Shown here: in pieces, positions 7,078 through 26,628 of the stretch
Layout of the letters: every line of letters starts with the position of its first letter
Position numbering within the stretch: the stretch's first letter is position 1
Source of the DNA: a virus
Length of the DNA: 27,682 bases
Strand: one strand, 5' to 3'
IMG/VR virus record: IMGVR_UViG_3300003650_000032
Span: 1-27,682 of that record
Translations under genes and position numbers: made by a program
The notes under the pieces: model-generated
Told to the model about the DNA's origin: nothing
Databases searched by the model: none
What the model saw: the letters and a program-made list of their open reading frames with translations, nothing else

Positions 7078-7452
7078 ATGACTACATTCATCGGCTTTAA
7101 CACGCAAAATCAATACAAGAAGTTCACACTCACCGACTTTGAGTTAGTTAAGCGTGATCTACTAAATGCCTTCAATATTCGCCAGGGACAATTACCGGGC
7201 CGCCCCGGATATGGAACTATCATATGGGAATACCTGTTTGAAAATCAAATACAAGCAGTACAGCAAGGTATTGTAGATGAAGTTCAGCGAGTAGCAGGTG
7301 CCGACCCGCGGCTTTTCGTGAATAAGGTCAATGTGTATCCACAATTAAACGGTATGCTAATTGAAATAGAATTGCAGATGGTTGGCACATCATCCGCCGA
7401 ACTATTGTCATTAATGTTTGACCAACAATCTCGCAGCGCCAACTATGTATAA
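7078..7452 (+). CDS. 25: Baseplate wedge protein gp25-like
   Basis: 124 aa, near T4 gp25 (132 aa). Visible family features are the N-terminal helix 'LVKRDLLNAFNIRQGQLPG', the turn 'GRPGYGT' (residues 41-47) before 'IIWEYLFEN', and a DPR triplet (D76-P77-R78) where gp25 and its type VI secretion homologue TssE usually carry EPR. The end is an amphipathic strand region ('GMLIEIELQMV'). In T4-type baseplates gp25 joins two gp6 copies to form the core of each wedge and contacts the sheath start. The gp6-like gene follows after 59 bases, the expected partner order. The ATG sits eight bases after the upstream stop without a clear ribosome site, so re-initiation or a leaderless message are the options. 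Confidence 0.88.
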   Translation: MTTFIGFNTQNQYKKFTLTDFELVKRDLLNAFNIRQGQLPGRPGYGTIIWEYLFENQIQAVQQGIVDEVQRVAGADPRLFVNKVNVYPQLNGMLIEIELQMVGTSSAELLSLMFDQQSRSANYV

Positions 7453-10500: not shown

Positions 10501-11012
10501 GTGATACTACTAACACAGTAATGGAGCCACTTATGCCCACAATTGACGAACTTAGTACAGCATATCAAGGACTGCAAGATTACAAGATGTTAAGTGATAA
10601 TGTTGTTGTAAATTCTGTGGTATTCAAGCCGTTGTTTGGTGCAAAAGCGGCAAGTTCGTTACGGGCAACCATCAAGGTCATTAAAGCTGCAAATTCAACA
10701 GCAAGCACAAGCGAAATACAAAGTGCAGTTCTTACATCAATGAATACTTATTTTAGTATAGACGAGTGGAATTTTGGGGACACATTCTATTTCTCAGAAC
10801 TAGCGGGATATCTGCATAAAAATCTAGGAACTATTATCAGTTCAGTTGTATTAGTACCGCTAGACATACAAAAGTATTTTGGTGATCTATACGAGATTCG
10901 TGCAGAACCCAATGAAATATTTGTCAATGGTGCCACCATTGATAATATTATTGTAATTGAAGCATTAACAAGTACAAACTTGCGAACTTCACCAGGTAGC
11001 GGAGTAATTTAA
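7512..11012 (+). CDS. 6: Baseplate wedge protein gp6-like
   Basis: 1166 aa. The N-terminus has the gp6 signature 'FVDYLRLYYPETFNDYIESS' then 'EYIALLDVIAFMGQAIAFR' (residues ~37-78), like the YP..FNDW..S..G.ALLDLLAY stretch of T4 gp6. A baseplate-J-type region follows: 'IIFGDGVFSEIPVGIFRAYV' (~338-357) and 'ESIEAIKQRAPARYYTQNRM' (~409-428). The C-terminus has 'YFGDLYEIRAEPNEIFVNG' (~1123-1141). gp6 forms the iris-like inner ring whose dimers with gp25 hold the hub and open when the tail contracts. It is nearly twice T4 gp6 (660 aa). The extra length lies mainly in residues ~450-850 and includes a DxDxDG loop (838-849). The stop overlaps the next ATG by one base. Confidence 0.9.
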   Translation: MAQTTRQTAIFGVEDWKQIYQTYREADFQSYDFETLRKSFVDYLRLYYPETFNDYIESSEYIALLDVIAFMGQAIAFRTDLNTRENYLDTAERRDSVVKLADLVSYTAKRNTASQGMLKVFNITTTENVVDYNGVSLSNNTINWADPTNFDWLEQWNAIINASLVDSQKVGKPGNKQTILGIDTSEYAINLVPGVLPVIPYTATVDGVNMPFDVVTATSSGRDYVYEPSPVPNSTFNVMYRNDKLGYQSSNNGFFFLFKQGTLQNQDFNLAERISNRTVNINIEGVNNTDRWLFQLDNVGNISREWMYTENVYAAAAEQVSVLRPIYSTTSRTNDQLTIIFGDGVFSEIPVGIFRAYVRASNGLQYIINPAEMQNVVLPISYISRTGNLETITFTCGITQPVSNAQSRESIEAIKQRAPARYYTQNRMVNGEDYNLFPYTLYNSIIKSKALNRASIGTSRYLDLVDNTGKYSSTNTFSSDGAVWEDNILPTINVSLTNRNEIADFISNQVQANLTGPTVTQFYYANFPRISVNTGLTALSTWHQSTTLSNETTGYFQTAPVGDLPPVPIPLGIYYTTLQSFSYVVPRCSIKFVAPTINGQEYYFDANNRLKPGQPTRADDHTEIWASPTNIVGNGTNNGIGNFSSGQGPVTLNNFVPTGAIVDSIIPVFITNLSIAIQQEISQQMLLSRNFGIGYDSTGTVPTSAGAGTWYVITDTNLAQNATWSQEHAGDKSGENLDASWMAKFVVATDQNYQATFRGLAYYFGSVIQTRFFYYGNQKIYDSRTGTTIRDFVNILAVNTKPASTSPLTSDIYTTIIGQPVESDGYVDDFRVLISYRDNDNDGVPDNPDFFENIVGLTPLGRNAVSVNPKSPWVFMQRTVDFDNLQRDLLVEPLVVNSDYPTIDAIELVKFQYSPGQVFYAYSTEMFYQLSINVNTVRILTETPEGSWIAKTGRQGLYFQYRHNSPLTNRIDPGSTNIIDIYIVAQSYYTAYQNWLRDTTNTVMEPLMPTIDELSTAYQGLQDYKMLSDNVVVNSVVFKPLFGAKAASSLRATIKVIKAANSTASTSEIQSAVLTSMNTYFSIDEWNFGDTFYFSELAGYLHKNLGTIISSVVLVPLDIQKYFGDLYEIRAEPNEIFVNGATIDNIIVIEALTSTNLRTSPGSGVI
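10023..10058 (+). other. DxDxDGxPDxxD calcium-loop-like motif in the gp6-like protein
   Basis: Residues 838-849 read DNDNDGVPDNPD, the spacing of thrombospondin type-3/EF-hand-like calcium loops (acidic residues at 1, 3, 5, 9 and 12 with Gly at 6). It lies in the region that has no counterpart in T4 gp6. Metal binding is inferred from the motif only. Confidence 0.5.
11001..11004 (+). promoter_or_regulatory. Ribosome binding site GGAG of the giant gene
   Basis: GGAG lies inside the last codons of the gp6-like gene, seven bases before the ATG at 11012 that overlaps the gp6 stop (TAATG). It supports this start and tight coupling. Confidence 0.6.
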
Positions 11013-14000
11013 TGGCTAGAGTTAGAAGTGTAGATTTTCTTCCTGAAATTTTTCAGACTGATGCTAACAAGCAATTCTTAGCAGCAACTCTTGACCAGTT
11101 GATCCAGGAACCTAAATTTAAAAAGACACAAGGTTTTATTGGTCGCACTGTTGGGCCAGGAGTAAACCCAAATGACAAGTATGTTATTGAACCTAACAAA
11201 ACTCGCGCAAACTATCAATTAGAGCCGGGAGTTATTAGTCTTGATCCGGTTAACACAGGTGCAATAAAGGATGCAATAACATACCCCGGTATCAATGATG
11301 CTCTTGAATTTCAGGGTGCAATAAGCGGCCGACCCGATCGCATGTATACAAGCGAATATTATACCTGGGATCCGTTTGTTGACTTTGATATATTTGTGAA
11401 TTTTAGTCAATATTATTGGATTCCTGCTGGCCCTGCGGTAGTTGATGTTTCTACTACAGGTATACCACTTAGTGAAAATTTTGCAGTGACTCGTGCCAAT
11501 GGAGTGTACACATTTTCCGGACAAACTGGAGAAAATCCGGTCATTACCCTTGTTAGAAACGGAAATTACACATTTCAAGTTGCACAAAACAATGTCGAAA
11601 CTATAAATTTCAGAGTAGGCCGACAAGGAGTTACAAGTTATCAAATTGATTTTATAACTAACCCTGCATTAACTTTAATAAGAGGTAATACTTATGTGTT
11701 TACCCTTACTCAGTTAACTGGATTTCCTTTCTGGATCAAAACAGCAGCAACTACCGGCACAGGTGATTCCTATAATGCCGGTGTTACAAACAACGGTGCA
11801 ATGATAGGCAATGTAACATTTATAGTGCCACAAGATGCGCCGGATACATTATATTATTCGTGCGAAACACAATCGTTGATGAACGGGCAAATCAATATCG
11901 TCAATGGTGTTGCCGGAACTGGTTCTAAATTTTGGATTCAAACTAACCCCGGCATCTCGGGAAAAAATCCAGTAACCCCAAACATCAGCAGTCGCGAAGT
12001 ACTAGGTGTTTATAATAACGGTGTTGACTTAGGGACAATAAATTTCAATGTTCCTGCAAGTACAGCCCAGGATTTTTATTACAATCTCAACAATTTTGGT
12101 ACCGTTGATCTTATATGTAATTTGAGATATGATCAAATACAAGGTGCTTCGTTAGATGAATTCATTGCTAGATATGGCGGCATAGATGGTATTACCAATC
12201 TAAACACTCGCACCTTGATATTTACTAATCGAGCGAGTGGTGAGGATGGCGGCTGGATAGCTCAGAGTCCATTTGATCCACTAAATCGAGATGATGCAAA
12301 TAACGGCCTGCCCGGTAGTTTTGATAATTTAGGCTATGCTTATACTACAGAAGTCCCCGAAGATCAATACTATAATGTCTGGCAAATAAGTTATGTTACT
12401 GTAGATGGTATTAGATATCTACATCTAAGTAGCGCAGGTACTATAAACACTCTAGATAAATTTTCAATAAGATACGGAACTGTATATTCAACAACAAACT
12501 GGTACAAACTTGAATCTGGTGTGTTTGTAGAAATCCCTGTGTTGTCAGCTACATCGGACACTTTATATTATCAAGATAGCACCGATCCAGAAATCTTCGG
12601 TACAATTCGTTTGATTGATCAAACAGCAAGTAATACACTTTATATCGATGATATTATTGGTAATAAAAATTATACTAGCCCCATTGGTGTTGTTTTTACC
12701 AATGGTTTAAAAGTTCGCTTTCCTGGAGACGTTGTTCCTGCTGCTTATAGCACCAGGTCAGTTACATTAACTTGTACATCAACCGCCGCTGGCGTGAATA
12801 TTATTACCGGAGACGATACCTCTAATTTAATTATCGGGCAAACAATTGAATTCTATAGCACACCGTTTGGCGGTGTGTCCGAAGGCATAATCTATTATGT
12901 TCGGTCGATATTTAGCAGTACACAATTTTCAATATCAACGATTCCAAATGGTCCGGCAGTAACATTGACTTCTGCTGTTGGCACAATGATTGGAGTTGCA
13001 AGCCAAGCACCCGAATACTATGTAAGTGGAGTTGGGACGGCAATTGAGTTATTGCCGGTTACTGATTTTATTACTCCAGAAGTTATTACTACAGAAAATG
13101 CACAATTAGGTCAACTTGATTACCTTACTATTAATCGTGCCAGCAAAGATCTAAATGCATGGTCACGCAGCAATCGTTGGTTTCATATTGATGTTTTAAA
13201 TGCTACTGGAAAATATAACGATGCTCCGGTTGTTCTTGATAACAACTTCCGGGCAAAACGACCCGTTTTACAATTCAACAGTAACATTAGAATGTTTAAC
13301 ATGGGCACAGCAGGAAAAAGCCCAGTGAACACAATTGACTTCGCCGAAACCGACGCCTTTAGCAACATTGAAGGTAGCACAGGATATAGTGTAAATGGAT
13401 ATACACTAGTAGACGGCAGTAGAGTTATTTTTGCTGCCGACCTAGATGTCGATGTTAGGAATAAAATTTATATAGTTAATTTCATTACGCCTGACACAGT
13501 GGATCCTTTAATTGCTCAACCAATTATAAATCTAGTAGAAGCAGCAGACGGTGCAGTATTTGCAGATCAATGTACTGTATGTTTAAGCGGTGAACAAGTT
13601 GGCATTAGCTATTGGTTTGATGGAGTTGATTGGAACCAGGCACAACTAAAACAAAGTGTGCAGCAAACTCCTTTGTTTAACATATATGATATCAACGGTT
13701 ATAGCTTTAGTAATAGAACAATATATCCCAGCTCAACTTTTATAGGAAGTAAGTTGTTTAGTTATACAACAGGATATGGAATAACAGACCCTATTTTAAA
13801 ATTTAAATTAAAGTATCTTACTCTTAATAATGTAGGAGATATTGTTTTTGACAATAATTTGTATACAGATACATTTGTGTATGTTACTAACAACCAAAGC
13901 ACTATAAAGCAAATTAGTTCGGGCTTTGTTTACGAGTACGCATCAAGAGAAATATACAAAAGATTGTTAGGTTGGCAAACTGCGGTAGTCCCAACACCAA

Positions 14001-17000
14001 TGCAACAACAATTTAAATTTGTTTATGCCGGAGTACCATTACAACTCGACTGTAAAGTTTTGCCTAACAATATAACTATTGTTCCGTCGATTAAGGTATT
14101 TGTTGGCTCTGCGTTCCAAGATCCGTCTACTTATTCGATAGTAACAACAACTAACAGCACAACAATTACATTTAATACAGTTCATATAATTGGAGATGTT
14201 ATCGAAGTTGAAGCGTTAAGCAACCAAACTAGTAAAGTGGCATTTTATCAAGTTCCGATAAATCTTGAAAATAACCCATTAAACAACAATAGCAGTTTTT
14301 TTACCCTTGGTACTGTTCGTACACATTATGGAAGTATCTGTCAGAACTTAACTAACTTAATCGGTACTATAAATGGTGCAAACAACACTCGTGACCTTGG
14401 CAACATTGTTCCATATGGCCAAACTATTTTGCAACAAAGTGCTCCGTTGACAATTGCCGGATACTTCTTGCGTTCCATTGACTATAATATTTTTGGAGCA
14501 CTAGAATACAATAGCCGAGAGTATCAAAAGTTTAAAAATAAATTGTTAGAATCTGTTACAACTCAAACTATTCAATTTGAAAATGCAGGCACAATTCTTG
14601 ACACTGCGATTGCAAACATTACATTAGATCGCAGCGACCTTAATCCATTTTATTGGAGTGACATGTTGCCATCTAGTGCAGGATACACTAAAACAATATA
14701 TACTGTTTCGTATACCACTGGCAATACATTCGACACTATACAAGTTTATAACTATACTAGTGCTAATTATTTAGGTATGAATGTTTACATCAATGGTCGT
14801 ATTTTAGAAAGAGACTTTGAATATTCAGTTGCTACAGACGGTCCGCGTATTACAATTCTTGAACCTTTGTACAGTACACTAGTAAACGGCAATGTAGTTA
14901 CATTACAAGAATATTCTACGACACAAGGCACATTTATTCCTAACACCCCAACCAAACTAGGATTATATCCATCCTGGAGACCAGAAATTACATCTGTAAA
15001 AACCAGCAGCGGAGAACAACTAGTAATTAAAGGGCACGACGGGAGCGAAACTCCTGTTTTTGGAGATATTCGAGACGAAGTATTATTAGAGTTTGAATCT
15101 AGAATTTACAACAACCTAAAATTAGACGGAAATTCTGTACCACTTACTATCGTAGATGTATTACCAGGACAGTTTCGTGACACAGGATATAGTATTAGTG
15201 AAATTAATAGTATTTTAAACACTAATTTTCTAACTTATGTTGGCTGGAACAAATTAAATTACAATGATCAAAATTATATAAGTGGTAATCCATTTACATG
15301 GAACTACAGCACGGCTCAGGACAAACTCAATAATCAAAATTTAATGGGCAATTGGCGTGGTATCTATCGTTATTTTTACGATACACAACAACCTGAACGT
15401 ACACCTTGGGAAATGATTGGCTTTGAGATTAAACCCGTCTGGTGGGAAATAACTTATGGCCCTGCTCCTTATACACAAGACAACTTGGTTCTATGGGACG
15501 ACTTAGAATTGGGTATAGTAAGAGATCCAGCTGGCACATACATCTTGCCTCAATATGCAAGGGCGGGACTAGTTACAGTATTGCCAACTGGCACAGAAGG
15601 CGCATTGGTGCCACCTATTGATTCCGTAGTAGGTGACTATAGTTCTCAAGCATCATTTATTAAAAGCTGGTCTCCCGGTGACGGCGGTCCTGTTGAGGCA
15701 GCGTGGTGGAACTCTAGTGACTATCCATTTGCGGTCATGCGTTTGTTAGCATTAACACGCCCCGCTAACTTCTTTGCGTTATTTGCAGATAGAGATCTTT
15801 ATCGCTACGAGCGCGAATTTGAACAGTACTTGTATCAAGATCGTTATAGATTAAATGCCAACAAAATTCAAGTATACGGCAATGGTGTTAGCAAAGCAAG
15901 TTACATCAATTGGATAATTGATTATAATCGTCAAATAGGCGAAGATTCAACCAAGGCGCTGGAAAAAGATCTTGCTAATTTAGATGTAAGATTATGTTAC
16001 CGCATGGCTAGTTTTAGTGACAAGCAATACATTAAGATTTATACAGAAAAGGCTAGCCCTAACACCTTAAACACAACATTGTTGTTGCCGGACGAGAGCT
16101 ACGACTTATTAGTGTATAAAAACCAACCGTTTGATCGTAGTTTGTACAGCAGTGTAGTTATACAGGTTGTAAGCGGTGGGTGGGCGGTATTTGGATATAG
16201 TACTACCCGTCCTTATTTTAATATATTGAGCAGTATACCAGTAGGACAATTCCGAACATTTACAGTAGCTGAAAAATCTATCCAGGTCCCGAAGAATTAT
16301 TCTAATACCGTTGTACAGGTGCCATATGGTTTTGTGTTTACCACAGCATCAGCCGTTGCCGACTTTTTGTTAAGTTACGGAAAATTACTAGAAAACCAAG
16401 GATTTACATTTACAAATCAAACCAATGGTTATATTATGGATTGGGACCAGATGGTAGAAGAATACTTGTACTGGTCACACCAAGGATGGGGCGAGGGAAG
16501 TATAATAAATCTTAACCCACTAGCTGACCGCCTAACAATAACAAAAGCGCAGGCAGTTGCAGATAGTGTAGTGGCACAGACTGCCGAACAAGTTCTAATA
16601 GATCAAAACCGTCGCGATTTTCCAGTACGAGATCTTAACATTATTCGTGAAGATAATACATTTACTATTCAACCATTGAGCAATCAAAGCCTTAGCTTTA
16701 TTGACATGCGTTTCACTAGTTATGAAAACATGATCGTGTTGAATAATGTAAGTTTGTTTGGCGATTTAATTTACGAACCAACGACAGGTGCTCGCCAGAG
16801 TCGTTTAAGTCTGGTGGCTGTTGAAACTACCGACTGGAACGGTACATTAAATGCACCTGGTTTTATTTTAAACCAAGACAATGTCAAAGAATGGACTGGA
16901 TTGCGCATATATCCAAAAGGCGAGCTTGTTAAGTACAAAGGTTCATACTGGTCGGCCGCGTCTATGGTACAACCTAGTATTAAATTCAATTACAACAATT

Positions 17001-20000
17001 GGAATCAAAGTGACTATACATTAATCCAACAAGGGTTATTGCCCAACATTACTAACAAAGCTGACCAATTGGCCAATAGTTACAATATCAATAATGCTAA
17101 TATCGAAAGTGACAATGATCTGTTGAGTTATGGATTAATTGGGTATAGACCTCGTCAATATCTTGCAGCATTGAATCTTAGCGATGTTAGCCAGCTTAAC
17201 ATTTATCGCGAGTTCATTGGGGCAAAGGGAACTATGCTCAGTGTTGATTTATTGGGTCGTGCTAACATTGGTAAAGAAGTTGCCGACTATACAATTTATG
17301 AAAACTGGGCAGTGCAGCGCAGTGTGTATGGTGCCAATGCTAATCGAAGTTTCTTTGACTTGCGATTAAATCGCGGCAATCTCACAAGTAATCCTAATAT
17401 AGTACAAATTATTACACCTAGTCAAGCTAATTCAGCAGACCAGGCTATATTGCTTAGTAGTCTATGGAAGAGTAGTTTTGTGCCAACCACTACACAAATT
17501 CTTCCGACAACTACTACATTACCTACTGACATTGCACTACCTACTGCCGGGTATGTTAACCTCGACGAGGTTGATTTATCGGTATTTGAATTGTCTAATC
17601 CGTCGGTGCTTAGTGCAAATCTAAATTCGATTAAAACAGGTACTAGTATCTGGGTTGCAAAGGTAAATGATTACGATTGGAACATTTATCGTGCTCATGC
17701 AGTTCCCGGGGTAATCAACCATGTGTGCGACAATCTAAACGGAACTAGTATTGTAAGGTTCACAAAGCAGCACGGCTTAAGCGTCGGCAACACGTTGATT
17801 ATTAGATTCTTTGATAGCGAAGTGGACGGAGTTTACAAAGTATTATCTATTCATGATCTAAATACAGTAACTATTGCATTTAGTTTTGACGGTGACCGCA
17901 CAGTTGCAAATGGCAACGGTATTGGATATACACTACAAACCATGCGGGTGTCGCAGGCCAGTAATATAAATAACTTGTCTTATACTAAACAGATGCTCCC
18001 TGGCACTAAAGTTTGGGTTGACAACAACGGCAAAGGGCAATGGGAAGTATTAGAAAAACAAAAGCCATTTGTTCCAACCAAAGATTTGCATTCAGTATCA
18101 CCAGCACCCGGCGATGCTTTTGGAGCGAGCGTGGCACAAACATCTAATAGATCTGCTATGTTCATAGGCAGTCCTAACTATGGTGCTGGCACAGGTGCAG
18201 TTTATCTCTATGTTAAAGAAGATAGTAATCAATACAAACCAGTAAGTCCTATACAAGGGCAAGATACTATATTAACATTGGGCGCAACCGGGACACGAGG
18301 TTACGGTAATGCTATAGATGCAGGTAATACGGCATACGCAATAGCAGGTGCTAGTGCAAGTAATGGCCCAACAGGCTTACCTAATAATGGGTATGCAGCA
18401 ATACTTTATAGAGATCCTGCAGCAGGTGCTAATAACACTAGCCCATGGGTCACCAGTCAACTGTTGACATTACCTGGTACTACCCCGCCAGATGACCCCG
18501 GTGCAGGTGAGTTTGGTTACAGTGTTGCAATGAGTTTAGACGAACGCTGGATGTACGTTGGTGCACCAGGATTGAATAAAGTGTTTGCATATGGCCAAGT
18601 GTTAAACGAACTACAAAAGTTAACATACCTTGCCGACGGCACAAGTGCTATTGCGATCATAAGTTCAATTATTCAAATAGACGACCCTGATCAAATTACT
18701 GTTGTAAAAAACGGTGAATTGTTGACGTTAACTACTAACTACAGTGTAGACTTAGACCCAAGTTTTACTGAAGTAACTTTTGTTGTTACACCAGCAGCCG
18801 GCGACAGAATTATTATTAACAGAAGAAATGACTATGCTTTTAAGGTTGAGGACGTTCCAGAAACCTTTCCTGTAGCACAATATTTGTTTACTGCTACAAG
18901 CAACATTGAGTCAATCACTGTAACAGTTAATTCTGTATTGCAACGACCAAACATTGATTATACTTGGGATGGAACTTCTCTTACTTTTGCCGAAGGGCAT
19001 GAACCAATACTTGATGATATAGTATTAGTAAGTTCGCAAAATTATTATGAACTTGCTGGCACTATAATTTCAGACTCAGAATTAATTGCAACTGACAGAT
19101 TTGGACATAGTATACAATGCTCAACCGACGGTCGACAGGTTGTTATTGGATGTAAAAATGCCACAGTTGATAGTTTAACTGAAGCAGGAAAAGTATACGT
19201 GTTTGATCGTAACGTCCAACGTTTTATCCAACAAACAAAGACTACAGACCCGTATACCATTACTGTATTGGGCACTGTAATTGCACCAGTTAGCGTGTCG
19301 TTAAACAATATATTCTTAACAAATCAAGACAATGGTATTGTTAGTGCCCAAAATACGTTCAGCGTAGATGGAAACAACATTACTATTATAAACAATCTAT
19401 CAGTTGGTGATGTAATCGAAATTGAAACCAACCAGTTTGTACAACAACAAATTATTACACAAGACACAGTTTCAGAATTTACAAACTTTGGTCAAGCATT
19501 AGACTTGTGCCCGTATAACTGTAGTCTATATGTTGGTGCGCCACAAGACAATGTCACAGCATGGCAAGGCGGCGTAGTACAACGCAGTGTTAGTCAGGCT
19601 AGAATATATGGAACAATTACTGCAACTGTTGCTAACCCTGTACTTGAGGTTGGGGACACGCTGAGAGTAAACAACATTGATTTCTACGTTCCAGACGCCG
19701 TGCTGCCTACCCCTGGGGTTCCGGGCGTATCTAGATTACAAGGCCTTGCCAAGAATATCAACGCCATCAAATCTAATGCCACCGCAAGCGTGTCCCCTGC
19801 CGGGGTCTTAACTATCTATGTTACAAATACAAATGCTGCACCAATCGGTAACAAATTACTAGTAACCCCAGGTAGTATTGGCACAGCATTTGACAATCCA
19901 TTTTACAATCTTGGATTTGAGACATTTGTGTTTACACAAACAATTACAAGTCCTTATCCAGTGGATTTTGCAGGCTTTGGTAGTTCGGTGGCAATCGATG

Positions 20001-23000
20001 ACACTGCAATAAATCTTGTAGTAGGTGCTCCACAAGGCAGCTTGTATTTGCCAAACACATTTGATTATAATACAGTTACAAAAGTACCTGGTACTACTGT
20101 TGACGGAAACTCGACTACTTTCTTTAGTCCTGTAGTGCAACGCGGCGCAGTATATACATATGATTACATGCCAAGTGCCAACGACATTATTTCTAATCCA
20201 GGTAAGTTTATATTTGGCCAACAAGTTGAATCTAATATTATTCAACCATATAGCATACAAAGTCTACCCGGCATAATTCCAGAAGTTGTTGGAGGGATAC
20301 CACTATGGGGACCAGGATATGGTACCGCAGTAAGTTATAACTCTGGTGTGTTGGTAGCAACAGCACCGGGAAATGGTGCTGCATATGGTTCATCATTTGT
20401 GTTTGAAAATCCTACTCGTGCTCCTGCCTGGAACCCAATTCGTGTACAACAACCGGTGGTCGATATTAGACTATTACGCAGTGTATACATGTATGATAGA
20501 ATCACCGGTGCCAAAAGTGAATTCTTTGATTTCTTTGACCCACTACAAGGCAAGATTCTTGGCGCAGCCGCAAAAAATCTTGATTATATTGGGGGAGTAG
20601 ATCCTGCAAACTATAATATTGGCACAGTTAATAACTTTGGAAATACATGGGGCACAGAACATGTCGGCGAAATGTGGTGGGATATTAGCACCGTGCGTTT
20701 TATTGATCCTAACCAGAATAATATTACATATACTAGCCGTCGTTGGGGGCAAGTATTCCCCGGTTCCAACGTGGATGTATATCAATGGATTGAGAGTGCT
20801 ACAGCACCAGCAAACTATCCCGGTCCCGGCACACCGTATACTGCCAACAGCTATGTAATAAAAACACAGCTGAAACAAAGTGGTACCTTTGCCACCACAT
20901 ACTATTTCTGGGCTTCTGGCATTATTGAAACATATGGGCCACAAGCTAAAACATTAAGTGCTGCCACAGTTGCACAATATATTCAAGACCCTAAAAATAG
21001 TGGCATTGCGTATATTGCACCAATTAATGCAAGTACCATTGCTATCTATAATGGTCTGGAGTTTATAAATGCCACCGATACAATTATCAGTATTGAGTTT
21101 GATCAAACTTTAACGGCTGCTAACGTACATGCCGAGTTTGAATTAATAGCTCAAGGCCAACCGAGCGCATTCCTCAGTGATAATTTATACCGCAAACTCC
21201 AAGATAGTTTCTGCGGAGTTGATACATATGGACACACTGTTCCAGATCCTAACTTACCCCAAAGTCAGCGATATGGTGTACAGTACCGCCCGCGCCAAAG
21301 TATGTTTGCAGATAGATTTACAGCACTTAGAAACTATATTCAACGCGCTAACTCTGTATTTGCTTTGTACTCCATAGTCGAAAACCGCACATTTACTTTG
21401 TTAAATAGTGCCGAATCGGAGCCGGGCTCGAATACAGGTGCATGGAATCTGCGCGTAGCGAATTTAGAAATTCTAGGATTCCAAAATATCTACACTGTCT
21501 CACTTGGATACAAATATCTTGTTGTAACAGACAGTAGCCAACGCGGGTTATGGACTATCTACACAGTAGAAATATCACAAACTGATCTTGATGTTCGAGT
21601 ACTAGTATTAACGCAAGTACAAAATTACAACACACCTAACTATTGGAGCTATATCAATTGGTATGCACCGGGCTATAATTCCAGTTCCAAGATTGTTGCC
21701 GACGTTCCTAATTATGCTAGCTTGGCCACAATATCTGTTCCTGTAGGCAGTAGTGTTAAAGTAATCTCAAATGCTCGGGGAAAATTTGAAATATACTTAA
21801 AAACAAACATTGGGTGGGACAGGGTTGCATTGCAAGATGGTACCATTGAGATTAGTGCAGAAATTTATGATTATGCGTTGGGACGTTTTGGATTCGATGT
21901 CGAAGTATTTGATTCACAATACTTTGATGAAGAGCCAGTGATAGAAACTCGCAAAATAATTCAGGCCATCAATGAAGAACTATTAGTTGGAGATTTATTA
22001 GTTAAACGTAATGAATTATTGACCTTGATGTTTAACTTTGTATTAAGCGAATTTGCTGCTCCGGAGTGGCTAATGAAAACGTCATTGATTGATGTAGATC
22101 ACAAAATTCGCGAGTTAGTGCCATTCCAGAACTACATTAGAGATAATCAAGACTTTGTTAGCGGGTATATCCAAGAAGTAAAACCGTACCATGTACAAGT
22201 GAGAGAATTTAACTTGAAATATTCCGGTATTGACGAATATTTTGGAGACACAACCGACTTTGACATCCCTGCGTTTTATAACACGACGCTAATAACGCCG
22301 CAGTATGTAAGTCCAATTTTGTTGCCATATGCGCATAGTGCCCCGCAAGCGTTTAATTTCATAAGCGATACTCCTGCCGACAGCACAGTATGGAGTAGAT
22401 TGCAATATAACCAATGGTATAACAATTATACATTGTACGTTGATTCTATCTATGTGGCCAATCGAGGTTCGGGTTATACTGTACCTCCGGTTCTTTATAT
22501 TGTCCCAGCAGACGGCGACACCACTGGTTCTGGGGCCACCGCTGTAGCAACATTAAATTCGCAAGGCCAGGTAGTTGATATAAACGTAACCAATGCAGGT
22601 AACGGATATACACAAACTCCAATGGTTGTATTTGTCGGAGGTAACGGTATTAGTGCATTAGCATATCCTATTATGGCTAATAACTTAGTTCGTAGTTTCC
22701 GTACTGTAATAAAATATGATCGTTATGAATATAACAGTTTAGTTGAAACATGGAATCCCGTCGGAACTTATGTAAATGGCACATTGGTTCGTTATGCTGA
22801 TCGAGTATGGCAGGCAAAGAGCTATGGCGGCAGCACATCCGTTAGTGGTCCAGAATTTAATCTCGAAGACTGGGTCGAAATTGATGCTGCTGCGCTAAGT
22901 GGTGTAAATCGTACAATGGGCCTATACATACCCGGAGTTAATTCACCAGGATTAGACTTAGGATTGTTAATTGATGGCATAAATTATCCTGGAGTTCAAG

Positions 23001-25807
23001 TTTGGGGAGATTATTTCTTAGGAGAAGGAAGCAATCCTGATACCCCTACTATAACATGTACATACACTGAAGGCACTAAAATTACCTGCAATGAAACTTT
23101 GCGCCTAGTAGTCAACGCCCAGATTAAGTTTTACGGAGAAACATTCGGCGGGATTATTGAAGGACAAAACTATTTTGTTAGCAGTGTATTAGATGCAACG
23201 CATTTTACAATTAGTATTATAGAAAACAATCCGCCTATACCGTTGATAACTGCTAGCGGTACTATGATAGCGTATGTACCGGAACCAGCAGATGCACTGT
23301 ATGCTAGTAGTTTTTCTGATCAATATCTTGGACTTCGCCCAACTGATATTAATGTCGACGGCGGCCAATTCATTGGCCCATACGAGGGACATGCTCCAGA
23401 AGAATTAGTAAATGGTAGCGAATTTGACACACTTGATTTGCGTGTATATACCCGCCCGGGCAGTGATTGGACTCACAACGGGCATGGATTTAAAATTGGC
23501 ACAGTTAATTGGGTGTATGAACCGACCGTAACTAATACATATAGTTGGGCTGATGCAGTATTGTATCCGTTTGAAATCATTGTAACAAATACTTCTACCG
23601 GATTGGTGCTTGCCCGAGCAATTAACTACACAGTTGATTGGGCTATGCAAACTATTTCTATATTGAGTAATGTAACAAGCAACGATATTATTGGTATTTC
23701 TGTTTTTGAAATTGGCGGTGGCAGTCAATTGTTCCGCGGAACATATACTGGGACAGATGTTGGTGATTCGGTGATCATTCCTGTTAACGCAGCAGAGATA
23801 TACGAGTTGCTGGTATTCCGTAACGGTGTGCTAAACACCAACGTTACATGGAGTGCATATATTCCAAGTACCGACTGGGATATCATTATCAATTATCAAA
23901 TACAATCGGTTGTTAATTACCTAGGAGTATACTACAGAGCAATACGTACCGTACCTGTTGGTATTGTAATAACAAATGCTACTTATTGGCTTGTTTATGT
24001 TCCTACTACACAATCCATAGTCAATTTTCATACTACGTATGGTGCTAACGATGGTATTTCTTTAGTAGCAATGGGAACAGAAACACCACAGTACAGTTGG
24101 AGTAACCCACAGACACAATATATTGTAGCAGACCAAGGCATTGTTAATAGTCGCACATTGAACTTGTCTAATAGCATAGCCGGAACTAACCCAGCCAACC
24201 TAATCGTTACACGCAATGGTGTAAGATTACGCCCAGCAGACGGAATTGAATGGATTGGTGATGCCACAAGTTTTAGTTTTGGATTGCCGCAACGTGGTGG
24301 ATATAGCCAAGAATTAATTAATGCTTATACTGATATAACCGTGTGGGTAGACAACGAATTGCAAGTTCAAAACTATGGTCCTGTTGTCGGAGACTACTAT
24401 GTTACTAACTACACAGGGAGCAACACACCCGGAAGACAGATATTATTCTTTACCCCGCCTGCTAGTGGTGTACAAATTTTAATTTCAGTTGACACTGAAT
24501 CATTATATAGTGTAATTACACAAACTAATCAAATTCAATTAGCATTACTTCCCAACATTGGAGATGTGTTTGCAGTAACTACTTGGAATGACACTGCGCA
24601 ACAGAATATTTTAACATTGGTATTCCAGGGCCCAACAACTAAAGGTATTACACTAAATGAACCGTATGACAGTACTGATTACGACTTGGCTGTAGAAGGA
24701 GCAATAGATGCACCGGGCAGCTATGACTTTACTTTAGGTATATTAATACCAATTAATGATTTTAATCTTGGGCGAGATGGACAATCTGCAAATCGTTTGT
24801 GGGTAACACTTGACGGGTATCGTTTATCCGAAGGCCAAGACTACACAGTCGACGGACAATACTTGATATACACTAAAGGAGCCATTGGTGCGGAACAAGT
24901 TATGGTAATAACAGAATTTACCCAAAGTCAAACACCGGAAGCAATAGGGTTCCGTATATTTCAGGACATGGCCGGAAATCAAACTACCTACCGTATCACA
25001 GAGGATACCACAACATATCTAACCCAAGAAGTGACCGCAACTGATGATGTTATACATGTTAAAAATGCCGGCAATTTAAGTGAGCCCGTTCTTGATACCG
25101 GTTACTTTGGTATTATTACTATCGACGGCGAACGCATATTGTATCGTGTTCGTGATATTACTAACAATATTGTAAGTGGCCTACACCGCGGTACTGCTGG
25201 TACTGCTGCTGCAAGTCATGAAATTAATGCCGATGTATATGAGTTAGGTGTTGGCAATAGAATGAAACAGACCGATCAGAATTACATTGTTAGTAACACT
25301 TATACCGGCGATGGTTCCACTGTTGTATTCTATGGCCCTAACATAGATAATGATAACTTTGATGGTACATCTGCACAACTTACCGCGAGTATAGAAGTAT
25401 ACATTGGGGGTATTCGTGCAGTTACAGGATGGCCGACTAACAATATAGTAGTTGGAACAACATACACTATTGCTAGTATAGGAACTACTAATTGGCACAC
25501 TGTTGGCGTACCGAGCAATGTTATACCAATGGTTGGCTATGTGTTTACTGCATCTGCAAATGGCGCAGGGACAGGCATAGTTGGCTCCACACTTGCTAGC
25601 TATTATTATGCTATTACTGTAAATGACCCAATAACTGTAACATTTATTACCACAACTGATCTACTAGCACCACCAGTTGGGCAAGCAGTTACCTTGTTAC
25701 AACGCCGCAGCACAACTTGGTATGCACCAGGAGTAGGAACCCCAAGCGACGGTGTAGCGCTCCAAGAAACAAACACAGAAGCTGCAAGGTTCTTGCGTGG
25801 ACTTTAA
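11012..25807 (+). CDS. Giant 4931-aa modular baseplate structural protein in the gp7 position
   Basis: One uninterrupted frame of 14.8 kb (product about 540 kDa), starting in overlap with the gp6-like stop. The N-terminus ('VRSVDFLPEIFQTDANKQFL', 'NYQLEPGV', 'YYTWDPFVDFDIFVNFSQYY') is typical of long structural proteins I recall from T4-like cyanophages. Further scaffold stretches are 'LTINRASKDLNAWSRSNRWF' (~707), 'VIKGHDGSETPVFGDIRDEV' (~1338), 'WEMIGFEIKPVWWEITYG' (~1466), 'VGEMWWDISTVRF' (~3218), 'IRELVPFQNYIRDNQDFV' (~3702) and a C-terminal 'LQETNTEAARFLRGL'. Spliced into this are a nested cupredoxin-like pair (~175-366), two copies of an FGG..EG module, a seven-motif FG-GAP propeller (~2364-3137), two GxGYT repeats, three carbohydrate-binding-like modules, several NG-hairpin beta domains and a YTI cassette. 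T4 gp7 (1032 aa), which follows gp6, is the outer wedge backbone; this protein occupies that slot, but homology to gp7 itself is not shown. A host- or surface-contacting role is inferred. Confidence 0.85.
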   Translation: MARVRSVDFLPEIFQTDANKQFLAATLDQLIQEPKFKKTQGFIGRTVGPGVNPNDKYVIEPNKTRANYQLEPGVISLDPVNTGAIKDAITYPGINDALEFQGAISGRPDRMYTSEYYTWDPFVDFDIFVNFSQYYWIPAGPAVVDVSTTGIPLSENFAVTRANGVYTFSGQTGENPVITLVRNGNYTFQVAQNNVETINFRVGRQGVTSYQIDFITNPALTLIRGNTYVFTLTQLTGFPFWIKTAATTGTGDSYNAGVTNNGAMIGNVTFIVPQDAPDTLYYSCETQSLMNGQINIVNGVAGTGSKFWIQTNPGISGKNPVTPNISSREVLGVYNNGVDLGTINFNVPASTAQDFYYNLNNFGTVDLICNLRYDQIQGASLDEFIARYGGIDGITNLNTRTLIFTNRASGEDGGWIAQSPFDPLNRDDANNGLPGSFDNLGYAYTTEVPEDQYYNVWQISYVTVDGIRYLHLSSAGTINTLDKFSIRYGTVYSTTNWYKLESGVFVEIPVLSATSDTLYYQDSTDPEIFGTIRLIDQTASNTLYIDDIIGNKNYTSPIGVVFTNGLKVRFPGDVVPAAYSTRSVTLTCTSTAAGVNIITGDDTSNLIIGQTIEFYSTPFGGVSEGIIYYVRSIFSSTQFSISTIPNGPAVTLTSAVGTMIGVASQAPEYYVSGVGTAIELLPVTDFITPEVITTENAQLGQLDYLTINRASKDLNAWSRSNRWFHIDVLNATGKYNDAPVVLDNNFRAKRPVLQFNSNIRMFNMGTAGKSPVNTIDFAETDAFSNIEGSTGYSVNGYTLVDGSRVIFAADLDVDVRNKIYIVNFITPDTVDPLIAQPIINLVEAADGAVFADQCTVCLSGEQVGISYWFDGVDWNQAQLKQSVQQTPLFNIYDINGYSFSNRTIYPSSTFIGSKLFSYTTGYGITDPILKFKLKYLTLNNVGDIVFDNNLYTDTFVYVTNNQSTIKQISSGFVYEYASREIYKRLLGWQTAVVPTPMQQQFKFVYAGVPLQLDCKVLPNNITIVPSIKVFVGSAFQDPSTYSIVTTTNSTTITFNTVHIIGDVIEVEALSNQTSKVAFYQVPINLENNPLNNNSSFFTLGTVRTHYGSICQNLTNLIGTINGANNTRDLGNIVPYGQTILQQSAPLTIAGYFLRSIDYNIFGALEYNSREYQKFKNKLLESVTTQTIQFENAGTILDTAIANITLDRSDLNPFYWSDMLPSSAGYTKTIYTVSYTTGNTFDTIQVYNYTSANYLGMNVYINGRILERDFEYSVATDGPRITILEPLYSTLVNGNVVTLQEYSTTQGTFIPNTPTKLGLYPSWRPEITSVKTSSGEQLVIKGHDGSETPVFGDIRDEVLLEFESRIYNNLKLDGNSVPLTIVDVLPGQFRDTGYSISEINSILNTNFLTYVGWNKLNYNDQNYISGNPFTWNYSTAQDKLNNQNLMGNWRGIYRYFYDTQQPERTPWEMIGFEIKPVWWEITYGPAPYTQDNLVLWDDLELGIVRDPAGTYILPQYARAGLVTVLPTGTEGALVPPIDSVVGDYSSQASFIKSWSPGDGGPVEAAWWNSSDYPFAVMRLLALTRPANFFALFADRDLYRYEREFEQYLYQDRYRLNANKIQVYGNGVSKASYINWIIDYNRQIGEDSTKALEKDLANLDVRLCYRMASFSDKQYIKIYTEKASPNTLNTTLLLPDESYDLLVYKNQPFDRSLYSSVVIQVVSGGWAVFGYSTTRPYFNILSSIPVGQFRTFTVAEKSIQVPKNYSNTVVQVPYGFVFTTASAVADFLLSYGKLLENQGFTFTNQTNGYIMDWDQMVEEYLYWSHQGWGEGSIINLNPLADRLTITKAQAVADSVVAQTAEQVLIDQNRRDFPVRDLNIIREDNTFTIQPLSNQSLSFIDMRFTSYENMIVLNNVSLFGDLIYEPTTGARQSRLSLVAVETTDWNGTLNAPGFILNQDNVKEWTGLRIYPKGELVKYKGSYWSAASMVQPSIKFNYNNWNQSDYTLIQQGLLPNITNKADQLANSYNINNANIESDNDLLSYGLIGYRPRQYLAALNLSDVSQLNIYREFIGAKGTMLSVDLLGRANIGKEVADYTIYENWAVQRSVYGANANRSFFDLRLNRGNLTSNPNIVQIITPSQANSADQAILLSSLWKSSFVPTTTQILPTTTTLPTDIALPTAGYVNLDEVDLSVFELSNPSVLSANLNSIKTGTSIWVAKVNDYDWNIYRAHAVPGVINHVCDNLNGTSIVRFTKQHGLSVGNTLIIRFFDSEVDGVYKVLSIHDLNTVTIAFSFDGDRTVANGNGIGYTLQTMRVSQASNINNLSYTKQMLPGTKVWVDNNGKGQWEVLEKQKPFVPTKDLHSVSPAPGDAFGASVAQTSNRSAMFIGSPNYGAGTGAVYLYVKEDSNQYKPVSPIQGQDTILTLGATGTRGYGNAIDAGNTAYAIAGASASNGPTGLPNNGYAAILYRDPAAGANNTSPWVTSQLLTLPGTTPPDDPGAGEFGYSVAMSLDERWMYVGAPGLNKVFAYGQVLNELQKLTYLADGTSAIAIISSIIQIDDPDQITVVKNGELLTLTTNYSVDLDPSFTEVTFVVTPAAGDRIIINRRNDYAFKVEDVPETFPVAQYLFTATSNIESITVTVNSVLQRPNIDYTWDGTSLTFAEGHEPILDDIVLVSSQNYYELAGTIISDSELIATDRFGHSIQCSTDGRQVVIGCKNATVDSLTEAGKVYVFDRNVQRFIQQTKTTDPYTITVLGTVIAPVSVSLNNIFLTNQDNGIVSAQNTFSVDGNNITIINNLSVGDVIEIETNQFVQQQIITQDTVSEFTNFGQALDLCPYNCSLYVGAPQDNVTAWQGGVVQRSVSQARIYGTITATVANPVLEVGDTLRVNNIDFYVPDAVLPTPGVPGVSRLQGLAKNINAIKSNATASVSPAGVLTIYVTNTNAAPIGNKLLVTPGSIGTAFDNPFYNLGFETFVFTQTITSPYPVDFAGFGSSVAIDDTAINLVVGAPQGSLYLPNTFDYNTVTKVPGTTVDGNSTTFFSPVVQRGAVYTYDYMPSANDIISNPGKFIFGQQVESNIIQPYSIQSLPGIIPEVVGGIPLWGPGYGTAVSYNSGVLVATAPGNGAAYGSSFVFENPTRAPAWNPIRVQQPVVDIRLLRSVYMYDRITGAKSEFFDFFDPLQGKILGAAAKNLDYIGGVDPANYNIGTVNNFGNTWGTEHVGEMWWDISTVRFIDPNQNNITYTSRRWGQVFPGSNVDVYQWIESATAPANYPGPGTPYTANSYVIKTQLKQSGTFATTYYFWASGIIETYGPQAKTLSAATVAQYIQDPKNSGIAYIAPINASTIAIYNGLEFINATDTIISIEFDQTLTAANVHAEFELIAQGQPSAFLSDNLYRKLQDSFCGVDTYGHTVPDPNLPQSQRYGVQYRPRQSMFADRFTALRNYIQRANSVFALYSIVENRTFTLLNSAESEPGSNTGAWNLRVANLEILGFQNIYTVSLGYKYLVVTDSSQRGLWTIYTVEISQTDLDVRVLVLTQVQNYNTPNYWSYINWYAPGYNSSSKIVADVPNYASLATISVPVGSSVKVISNARGKFEIYLKTNIGWDRVALQDGTIEISAEIYDYALGRFGFDVEVFDSQYFDEEPVIETRKIIQAINEELLVGDLLVKRNELLTLMFNFVLSEFAAPEWLMKTSLIDVDHKIRELVPFQNYIRDNQDFVSGYIQEVKPYHVQVREFNLKYSGIDEYFGDTTDFDIPAFYNTTLITPQYVSPILLPYAHSAPQAFNFISDTPADSTVWSRLQYNQWYNNYTLYVDSIYVANRGSGYTVPPVLYIVPADGDTTGSGATAVATLNSQGQVVDINVTNAGNGYTQTPMVVFVGGNGISALAYPIMANNLVRSFRTVIKYDRYEYNSLVETWNPVGTYVNGTLVRYADRVWQAKSYGGSTSVSGPEFNLEDWVEIDAAALSGVNRTMGLYIPGVNSPGLDLGLLIDGINYPGVQVWGDYFLGEGSNPDTPTITCTYTEGTKITCNETLRLVVNAQIKFYGETFGGIIEGQNYFVSSVLDATHFTISIIENNPPIPLITASGTMIAYVPEPADALYASSFSDQYLGLRPTDINVDGGQFIGPYEGHAPEELVNGSEFDTLDLRVYTRPGSDWTHNGHGFKIGTVNWVYEPTVTNTYSWADAVLYPFEIIVTNTSTGLVLARAINYTVDWAMQTISILSNVTSNDIIGISVFEIGGGSQLFRGTYTGTDVGDSVIIPVNAAEIYELLVFRNGVLNTNVTWSAYIPSTDWDIIINYQIQSVVNYLGVYYRAIRTVPVGIVITNATYWLVYVPTTQSIVNFHTTYGANDGISLVAMGTETPQYSWSNPQTQYIVADQGIVNSRTLNLSNSIAGTNPANLIVTRNGVRLRPADGIEWIGDATSFSFGLPQRGGYSQELINAYTDITVWVDNELQVQNYGPVVGDYYVTNYTGSNTPGRQILFFTPPASGVQILISVDTESLYSVITQTNQIQLALLPNIGDVFAVTTWNDTAQQNILTLVFQGPTTKGITLNEPYDSTDYDLAVEGAIDAPGSYDFTLGILIPINDFNLGRDGQSANRLWVTLDGYRLSEGQDYTVDGQYLIYTKGAIGAEQVMVITEFTQSQTPEAIGFRIFQDMAGNQTTYRITEDTTTYLTQEVTATDDVIHVKNAGNLSEPVLDTGYFGIITIDGERILYRVRDITNNIVSGLHRGTAGTAAASHEINADVYELGVGNRMKQTDQNYIVSNTYTGDGSTVVFYGPNIDNDNFDGTSAQLTASIEVYIGGIRAVTGWPTNNIVVGTTYTIASIGTTNWHTVGVPSNVIPMVGYVFTASANGAGTGIVGSTLASYYYAITVNDPITVTFITTTDLLAPPVGQAVTLLQRRSTTWYAPGVGTPSDGVALQETNTEAARFLRGL
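11531..12109 (+). other. Nested pair of cupredoxin-like beta domains in the giant protein
   Basis: Residues ~217-300 form one domain: 'NPALTLIRGNTYVFTL', 'GFPFWIKT', 'GVTNNGA', 'NVTFIVPQDAPDTLYYSC', 'MNGQINIV'. It is flanked by the two halves of a similar domain: 'NPVITLVRNGNYTFQVAQ' before (~175-192) and 'KFWIQTNPG', 'VYNNGVDLGTINFNVP', 'AQDFYYNL' after (~306-360). The order of matching pieces shows an inner copy sitting in a loop of an outer copy. In the inner copy the Cys (C284) and Met (M290) positions of a copper site are present, but the His positions read Phe (F238) and Gln (Q287), so copper binding is unlikely. Confidence 0.6.
12752..13009 (+). other. Inserted FGG..EG beta module, copy 1
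   Basis: Residues ~582-666 hold 'QTIEFYSTPFGGVSEGIIYY', 'VRSIFSSTQFSIST' and 'SAVGTMIGV'. They interrupt what otherwise reads as one scaffold stretch ('GLKVRFPGDVVPAAYS' before, 'YYVSGVGTAIELLPVTDF' after). A second copy is at 23030-23290. Confidence 0.6.
16904..17020 (+). other. Carbohydrate-binding-like module, copy 1
   Basis: Residues ~1965-2003 read 'YPKGELVKYKGSYWSAASMV' followed by '...NNWNQ'. The pattern G-x-x-V-x-Y-x-G-x-x-Y/W-x-A with a closing NW resembles chitin-binding type 3/CBM5-12 modules common in phage tail proteins. Sugar binding is not shown. Confidence 0.45.
18101..20420 (+). repeat. Seven FG-GAP/integrin-alpha-type blade motifs (beta-propeller)
   Basis: Seven segments share an FG/YG-x-[SA] opening, a buried strand with xxxVGAP-like end and, in most, a GxVYxY-like strand. 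They are 'GDAFGASVAQ' (G2367) with 'MFIGSPNYG' and 'GAVYLYVK'; 'TRGYGNAIDAG' (T2428); 'GEFGYSVAMS' (G2499) with 'WMYVGAPG'; 'DRFGHSIQCS' (D2695) with 'KVYVFDR'; 'TNFGQALDLC' (T2824) with 'LYVGAPQD'; 'AGFGSSVAID' (A2987) with 'LVVGAPQGS' and 'GAVYTYDYM'; 'GPGYGTAVSY' (G3100) with 'VATAPGNG' and 'SSFVFEN'. Seven is the number in integrin-alpha propellers. Spacing is ~62-71 residues for the first blades, then 113-195 where other domains are inserted. Confidence 0.7.
22457..22650 (+). repeat. Two GxGYT-xxP-x-V repeats in the giant protein
   Basis: 'GSGYTVPPVLYI' (from residue 3819) and 'GNGYTQTPMVVFVGG' (from 3863) are spaced 44 residues apart, with 'ATAVATLNSQGQVVDINVTN' between. This Gly-rich beta repeat occurs in many phage fibre and baseplate proteins. 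Its ligand is unknown. Confidence 0.6.
22751..22882 (+). other. Carbohydrate-binding-like module, copy 2
   Basis: Residues 3914-3957 read 'WNPVGTYVNGTLVRYADRVW' then 'QAKSYGG' and a closing 'LEDWVEI'. It has the W..G.Y..G.LV.Y...W.A......W order of CBM5/12-like modules, and is the best of the three copies. Confidence 0.55.
23030..23290 (+). other. Inserted FGG..EG beta module, copy 2
   Basis: Residues ~4007-4093 hold 'QIKFYGETFGGIIEGQNYFV', 'SSVLDATHFTISII' and 'TASGTMIAYV', matching copy 1 at 12752-13009 piece by piece. They sit between 'GVQVWGDYFLGEG' and 'ASSFSDQYLGLRPTDINVDG', which look like one interrupted scaffold segment. Confidence 0.6.
23891..24003 (+). other. Carbohydrate-binding-like module, copy 3 (weak)
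   Basis: Residues ~4294-4331 read 'QSVVNYLGVYYRAIRTVPVG' and end in 'NATYWLVYV'. V-x-Y-x-G-x-Y-Y-R-A with a closing YW fits the same module type, but the N-terminal W/G is missing. Confidence 0.4.
25433..25597 (+). other. YTI-IGTTNW cassette inserted in the C-terminal beta domain
   Basis: Residues ~4808-4862 ('TTYTIASIGTTNWHTVG', 'VGYVFTASANGAGTGIVG') form a small Gly/Thr-rich domain type that recurs in phage tail proteins. They divide 'EVYIGGIRAVTGW' from 'YYYAITVNDPITVTFITTTD', which together would make one hairpin domain. Confidence 0.6.
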
Positions 25808-25819
25808 CAAGGTAAATAA

Positions 25820-25981
25820 ATGACCATGTCAATTACAACGCAAAAACAACCAGAAACACCGAAAACTTGGCAAGCAGCCCACGGTTGTAAACCCAATGAA
25901 CAAGGATCAATTGTTGTGCAAGCATATATGCGTATTTTTGATCCACAAACAAAACAGGTTTATGTAGAGGGACGAGCATGA
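25820..25981 (+). CDS. Small 53-aa protein of unknown function
   Basis: ATG at 25820 lies 12 bases after the giant gene's stop and the TGA overlaps the next start (ATGA, 25978-25981). The product begins MTMSITTQKQPETPKTWQAA and ends 'RIFDPQTKQVYVEGRA'. The second half looks like a beta hairpin with a 'VVQAYMRIFDPQTKQVYVEG' strand-turn-strand. 'AAGG' at 25808-25812 may serve as ribosome site. The gapless fit between two structural genes, with overlapping stop and start, is the main support. It may be a small virion component or assembly factor; no family was recognised. Confidence 0.65.
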   Translation: MTMSITTQKQPETPKTWQAAHGCKPNEQGSIVVQAYMRIFDPQTKQVYVEGRA

Positions 25982-26628
25982 TTTCAACAAACAATATGAT
26001 AGAAAATACTGGACTCGCAGTAAAGGGTTTTGGTAAAATAACCGATGTCACAGATAGAAATAACCCATTCTTGATACAAGAGTTTACTAATGCAATTCAT
26101 TACGAAAATATTAGCATCGCAATGGCGCAAACCTTAAGCAATCAACTTGATCCAAACGGTGCTAGATTTGGTATTGTGTATGAAATGGCGTTTGGCAACG
26201 GTGGATCTAGTGTAGACCCAACTGGAGTTATTACATATTTGCCCCCAAATACCACCGGGCAAAACGCCGACTTATACAATGTAACCTACGCTAAAGTTGT
26301 GGACACTAACTCTGCTACAAATACAGACCCTATAAATAATAAAATGACAGTACTACATACAAGTGGCACAGTCTACACAGATATATTAGTAACGTGTTTA
26401 CTAGACTATGGTGAACCCCCACAACAGCAAGTTTTTGACAACTCAACTAATTTTAACGGTGAATTTGTATTTGATGAATTGGGGTTAAAATCCTGGAACG
26501 GGGCAGTAGATAATTTGCGCCTTATTACACATGTGATTTTTCACCCGGTACAAAAAAGTTTAAATCGTCAAATTCAAATTGACTACACTTTAAGAATACA
26601 GACGTTGAGCAATATTAATGCTGTATAA
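25978..26628 (+). CDS. Structural protein of unknown function, probably baseplate or fibre-associated
   Basis: 216 aa, coupled to the 53-aa gene by an ATGA overlap. It has an N-terminal part 'GLAVKGFGKITDVTDRNNPF', a central 'FGIVYEMAFGNGGSSVDPTG' and 'TYLPPNTTGQNADLYNVTYA', and a C-terminal 'ELGLKSWNGAVDNLRLITHV' then 'FHPVQKSLNRQIQIDYTLRI'. These look like a beta-rich virion protein. There is no signal peptide or membrane segment. I compared it by memory with T4 gp8, gp9, gp10 and gp11 and saw no convincing match. Its place between the giant baseplate protein and the fibre makes a connector between them a reasonable but unproven guess. Confidence 0.6.
   Translation: MISTNNMIENTGLAVKGFGKITDVTDRNNPFLIQEFTNAIHYENISIAMAQTLSNQLDPNGARFGIVYEMAFGNGGSSVDPTGVITYLPPNTTGQNADLYNVTYAKVVDTNSATNTDPINNKMTVLHTSGTVYTDILVTCLLDYGEPPQQQVFDNSTNFNGEFVFDELGLKSWNGAVDNLRLITHVIFHPVQKSLNRQIQIDYTLRIQTLSNINAV

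Follow-up and report, generated by a model that had tools for sequence, protein, structure and literature searches.

The giant protein encoded in the window (the whole stretch of DNA analysed, a virus record of 27,682 nucleotides) contains a predicted complete seven-bladed propeller with the fold of the human integrin alpha head. It was recognized computationally by its seven FG-GAP units, its modelled structure, its insertion site, a single presence/absence change on trees, and the lack of calcium loops. On balance, we think that this FG-GAP_2 propeller, inserted in a putative wedge protein of a jumbo phage, is most likely a rigid, exposed platform for docking or adhesion. The gene stands in a baseplate operon with T4-like gene order, in a 27.7-kb virus record, with the following layout.

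681-983: gp53-like gene
987-3716: virion protein gene
3726-5228: gp5-like gene
5225-7069: unassigned Ala/Gly-rich ORF of 614 residues, unmatched by any PHROG
7078-7452: gp25-like gene
7512-11012: gp6-like gene, assigned from a Pfam match below cut-off and from counterparts by position in PA5oct, Atu_ph07, and RaK2
11012-25807, plus strand: giant ORF of 4,931 residues, directly 3' of the gp6-like gene and, by gene order, the positional counterpart of T4 gene 7
25978-26628: gene for a 216-residue protein, downstream of the giant ORF
26661 onward: fibre-like gene, start only

The genes occupying the gp6 position in PA5oct, Atu_ph07, and RaK2 are annotated as 'baseplate wedge subunit', and homologues of the giant ORF are annotated as virion structural protein, with detection by mass spectrometry in PA5oct.

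The initial annotation had described exactly seven FG/YG...GAP units at 18101-20420, corresponding to residues 2364-3136 of the giant protein; motif search and profile agree on this number, and neither places a unit elsewhere in the ORF. The units start at residues 2370, 2431, 2501, 2697, 2826, 2989, and 3103, and the resulting spacings (61, 70, 196, 129, 163, and 114) reproduce to within one residue the spacers of 113-195 residues that had been reported from blade 3 to blade 7. An all-unit profile built from 29 relatives scored the seven units at 10.7-33.5 bits, with zero other matches in 4,931 residues. When the profile was rebuilt with one unit left out at a time, units 3 and 6 remained clear (18.6 and 16.2 bits), units 1, 5, and 4 were weak (6.2, 3.0, and 1.2 bits), and units 2 and 7 were missed. 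Among the Pfam profiles proposed for checking, FG-GAP_2 (PF14312) matches the giant protein over four stretches (E=6.3e-10; 39.5 bits against a cut-off of 23) and 29 of 29 aligned relatives at E<=0.01, and the older FG-GAP profile (PF01839) fails, giving zero match at E<=0.001. Across 222 loci, which are the top matches of four scans and not a census, seven units were found in 106 and six units in another 31; several of the loci are truncated. The modest single-unit scores and the two units missed when held out lend something to the reading that FG and GAP motifs arose by chance in a beta-rich protein that is no propeller; the Pfam match above cut-off, the recurrence of seven or six units in the loci just mentioned, and two confident models with their PDB matches, described below, speak against it. 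We consider this reading highly improbable, and the structure models already contradict it.

Two AlphaFold2 predictions were made, from sequences distant from each other: model 1 covers residues 2290-3190 of the window protein with 29 sequences (pLDDT 82; pTM 0.85), and model 2 covers the relative L207, which lacks large inserts, with the flanks included (pLDDT 83; pTM 0.73). The strands of model 1 sort into seven sets, and its best fold matches in the PDB are integrin alpha chains (for alpha-V beta-8, E=1.4e-10 and TM 0.60 on a 440-residue target); for model 2, all 50 matches listed are integrin alpha chains, with E to 1.9e-15 and TM to 0.65. Structure prediction with a fold search, suggested as a check, thus returned a closed seven-bladed disc whose top-ranked PDB matches are integrin alpha propellers; closure was read from the strand order in the secondary-structure string and from a full-length integrin alignment. 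By this strand order, blade 7 appears to be completed by a strand at residues 2354-2359, ahead of unit 1. The interval initially given therefore holds all the units and leaves this closing strand (18071-18088) just outside, the domain running from about 18071 to 20407, and the proposal of an integrin-type seven-bladed propeller within a baseplate protein is supported by profiles, both models, and the fold matches. Searching the PDB by sequence, with the propeller or either of its flanking regions (upstream core, downstream flank) as the query, gave no credible match. The blades map as follows, all on the plus strand.

18071-20407: seven-bladed FG-GAP_2 propeller, residues 2354-3132
18071-18088: blade 7 strand D, which closes the ring by strand order
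18113-18274: blade 1
18296-18469: blade 2
18506-19066: blade 3, with an insert at 18602-19042, T7-tail-fibre-N-like in relatives
18686-18823 and 18905-19033: two copies of a mini beta domain in the blade 3 insert
19094-19456: blade 4, with an insert at 19229-19411 and a third copy of the mini beta domain at 19280-19429
19481-19945: blade 5, with an insert at 19595-19924, flagellin-IN-like in relatives (below cut-off)
19970-20227: blade 6; its B-C loop (20042-20131) is long and modelled at low confidence
20312-20407: blade 7 strands A-C

The inserted beta domains noticed at the outset are real: they sit between strands C and D of blades 3, 4, and 5. The mini-domain of blades 3 and 4 recurs in the giant protein at residues 1027-1068 and, weakly, at 4442-4492. 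In three relatives (L004, L008, and L019) the blade 3 insert matches Phage_T7_tail (PF03906) above cut-off, a profile that the window's own inserts did not reach in the Pfam scan. Compact relatives (L207, L229, and L174) are without large inserts, and in L207 and L264 the seven units can be read by eye; the ring is the constant part, and its decorations vary. The A-B turns are short (TSNRS, SLDER, STDGR, DDTAI), and a motif search of the domain bears out the earlier remark that classical DxDxDG calcium loops are absent. This absence is a family trait, since only 6 of 1,022 family units show even a loose DxDxDG match.

The place at which the ring entered the protein can be located from its flanks, which are common to deposited jumbo phages (PA5oct, SCTP-2, Atu_ph07, RaK2, and others). 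These lie on the plus strand.

14189-17431: upstream core, residues 1060-2140, conserved and common to jumbo phages without the propeller
18008-18058: hairpin strand VWVDNNGKGQWEVLEK (residues 2333-2349), which borders the insertion site on its upstream side
20426-21391: downstream flank, beginning AWNPIRVQQPVVD, kept with and without the propeller and used as the basis of the trees

The site was marked by a strand ending in W-x-V before the ring and a strand W-x-x-x-R-x-Q after it. Both strands could be located in 24 propeller-less loci, with a median distance of 5 residues between them; the median is 840 (range, 441-1037) in 113 propeller-bearing loci, and the distance is 791 in the window. 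In the downstream-flank tree, which is unrooted, presence and absence of the propeller switch once, with support of 99, separating 164 loci with it from 53 without it, a set in which a very diverged propeller could escape detection; a second unrooted tree, of 85 rows under a mixture model, again shows one change. We infer gain of the propeller and not its loss, because the site is short and closed in propeller-less loci, and an older phage protein appears to have received the propeller in one of its short loops, in a single event, and to have retained it. The two genes downstream are alike with the propeller (122/122 and 121/122) and without it (32/33 and 31/33), and in the propeller-bearing records tested FG-GAP_2 matches are confined to the giant ORF. 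The FG-GAP unit is absent from the giant proteins of the four deposited phages examined, PA5oct, SCTP-2, Atu_ph07, and RaK2. The window propeller as a query matched zero deposited phages; with L207 as the query, none of 86 matching deposited records, phages with the flanks in common, covers 80% of it or aligns across the propeller, and those listed align in two pieces (40-49%). These same four phages seemed at first to hold different domains at the site, as a hotspot of module swapping would; that idea was dropped, because comparison of the junctions puts the true site at a few residues and the trees show one change. An attempt to read the host from GTDB contigs gave seven MAG contigs, taxonomically mixed and 29-33% identical, and was uninformative.

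Two minor observations concern the giant proteins of the propeller-less phages. By eye, residues ~2130-2350 of the SCTP-2 protein (L055), just upstream of the equivalent site, look LamG-like, a domain unlisted there in the Pfam scan. Weak CBM_5_12 matches, below cut-off, occur near residues 1272-1618 of the PA5oct, SCTP-2, and Atu_ph07 giants (L054, L055, and L056), all three of them propeller-less; the domain is unlisted for the giant protein of the window.

In 28 of 30 close pairs compared, the upstream core is better conserved than the propeller, and in 28 the downstream flank is; the means are 79.7% for the propeller against 88.5 and 88.1% for the flanking regions, a divergence that is moderate and not extreme. 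Within the ring, strands B and C are the most conserved, and the B-C and D-A loops are among the least conserved parts, indeed the least among those outside the inserts. Judged from sequence, the faster divergence and the loop variability suit an exposed surface, and are unlike a swapped host-range module. They also bear on two other readings of the propeller: (i) as a candidate receptor-binding adhesin, it would bind a glycan or protein of the host surface and help to set host range, for which the lower conservation than both flanks in 28 of 30 pairs, the variable B-C and D-A loops, the fold shared with integrin heads, and the separate FG-GAP protein beside the tail-sheath genes of Atu_ph07 can be cited, but the propeller is never replaced at its site and changes once on the tree, whereas typical host-range modules get exchanged, and fibre genes are also present downstream of the giant gene, so that we rate direct receptor binding as a possible but less probable role; (ii) as inert bulk, the ring would merely widen or stiffen the baseplate with no particular binding, a reading compatible with its stable presence at one site and its highly conserved core strands but countered by the variable domains grafted on the blades, which suggest a surface in use, and one that we find unlikely. 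An exposed docking or contact platform would accordingly be ranked as most likely, direct receptor binding next, and inert bulk least.

The docking platform that we prefer can be pictured in the following steps: (i) an integrin-type ring was inserted between two neighbouring strands of a baseplate wedge protein, and would have been added to this one loop without disturbing the host fold, since the two ends of a propeller meet at its closing strand, which allows a whole ring to enter a single loop; (ii) the baseplate rim would hold about six copies, by analogy with T4 gene 7, whose position the giant protein occupies; (iii) the core strands would be retained while loops and inserts serve to dock fibres or adjoining parts of the baseplate, and may in addition make contact with the cell surface. 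Some inserts resemble the tail-anchoring domain of the T7 fibres, and these T7-fibre-N-like grafts lean toward docking. Docking through inserts cannot be the ancestral role, because the compact relatives lack such inserts. The single tree change, the fixed site, the lack of domain swapping, and the fibre-anchor-like inserts are at least as compatible with a platform for docking or structure as with receptor binding. It is in this sense that we infer the place of the propeller in the virion, its copy number, and its docking role.

T4 gp7 offers the nearest parallel by gene order, as its gene directly follows gene 6 in the way that the giant ORF follows the gp6-like gene, and the giant protein would be its counterpart on this ground. 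Homology to T4 gp7 was sought by profile comparison and not found, the best hhalign probability being 0.8% (E 0.07), and the putative rim location therefore rests on gene order. T4 gp7 has a length of 1,032 residues and is not known to contain a propeller. The giant virion proteins of PHROG 10938 (PA5oct gp355, RaK2 gp465, SCTP-2 140, and Atu_ph07 gp180) have homologous flanks and the same gene position, but differ in lacking the FG-GAP unit and in a hairpin that, wherever its strands are identifiable (in PA5oct, for example), is closed over a few residues. In T4, gp7 belongs to the wedges and lies at the periphery of the baseplate, as a monomer in six copies (PMC3004832).

With the integrin alpha chains (alpha-V, alpha-5, alpha-4, alpha-IIb, and alpha-L) the phage propeller shares seven four-stranded blades, FG and GAP motifs, and an N-terminal closing strand; it differs in having no calcium loops, in the C-D inserts of blades 3-5, in an identity of 10-17%, and in belonging to a viral protein without thigh or leg domains. 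It resembles FG-GAP_2 (PF14312) propellers in its profile match above cut-off and in its short A-B turns without calcium loops, but here the propeller is an internal domain of a protein from a baseplate operon. FG-GAP propellers are widespread among proteins of cells and of giant viruses. A few phages have them as separate proteins, by fold match in a structure library: Agrobacterium phage Atu_ph07 gp320 (also by the FG-GAP_2 profile) and cyanophage S-TIM5 H6WG31 differ from the window propeller in being separate proteins of ~400 residues, and Atu_ph07 retains a giant protein that is propeller-less. A relationship by sequence to the gp320 propeller was considered and set aside, the match not being significant. 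A0A6J5L8L4, from an uncultured phage, ranked first in the viral structure library and may be a protein of the kind seen in the window. In the literature searched, which gives partial coverage, we found no description of an FG-GAP or integrin-like propeller built into a phage baseplate protein.

The case is one in which a whole closed propeller entered one loop of a baseplate protein and was then retained through deep divergence, with the empty insertion site still visible in living relatives. It offers a traceable instance of a phage baseplate gaining an outer layer, and a natural comparison, with and without the ring, for asking whether added domains of this sort act in docking of fibres or in contact with the host. 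More speculatively still than direct receptor binding, about six wedge propellers, as integrin-like adhesion heads with fibre-anchor grafts on their blades, might form a second host-contact surface, separate from the tail fibres, in a large uncultured clade of jumbo phages and help to trigger contraction.

Some further elements were seen in passing. Atu_ph07 gp320 (NC_042013.1 243018-244199; L158) is annotated as 'hemagglutinin' and is a separate FG-GAP propeller beside the tail-sheath genes, where a 409-residue frame has the FG-GAP_2 match. At 22421-22678 the window carries GxGY...P repeats, which hub and head-closure PHROGs match too, and a large GxGY...P array occupies residues 1640-3200 of the Atu_ph07 giant protein (L056), upstream of the insertion site. 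A module YTIxSxGTTNF/W...ANGxGTG is found at 25439-25585 of the window and at ~25 scattered places in the giant proteins of relatives, both within and beyond the propeller, and looks like a wandering mini-domain.
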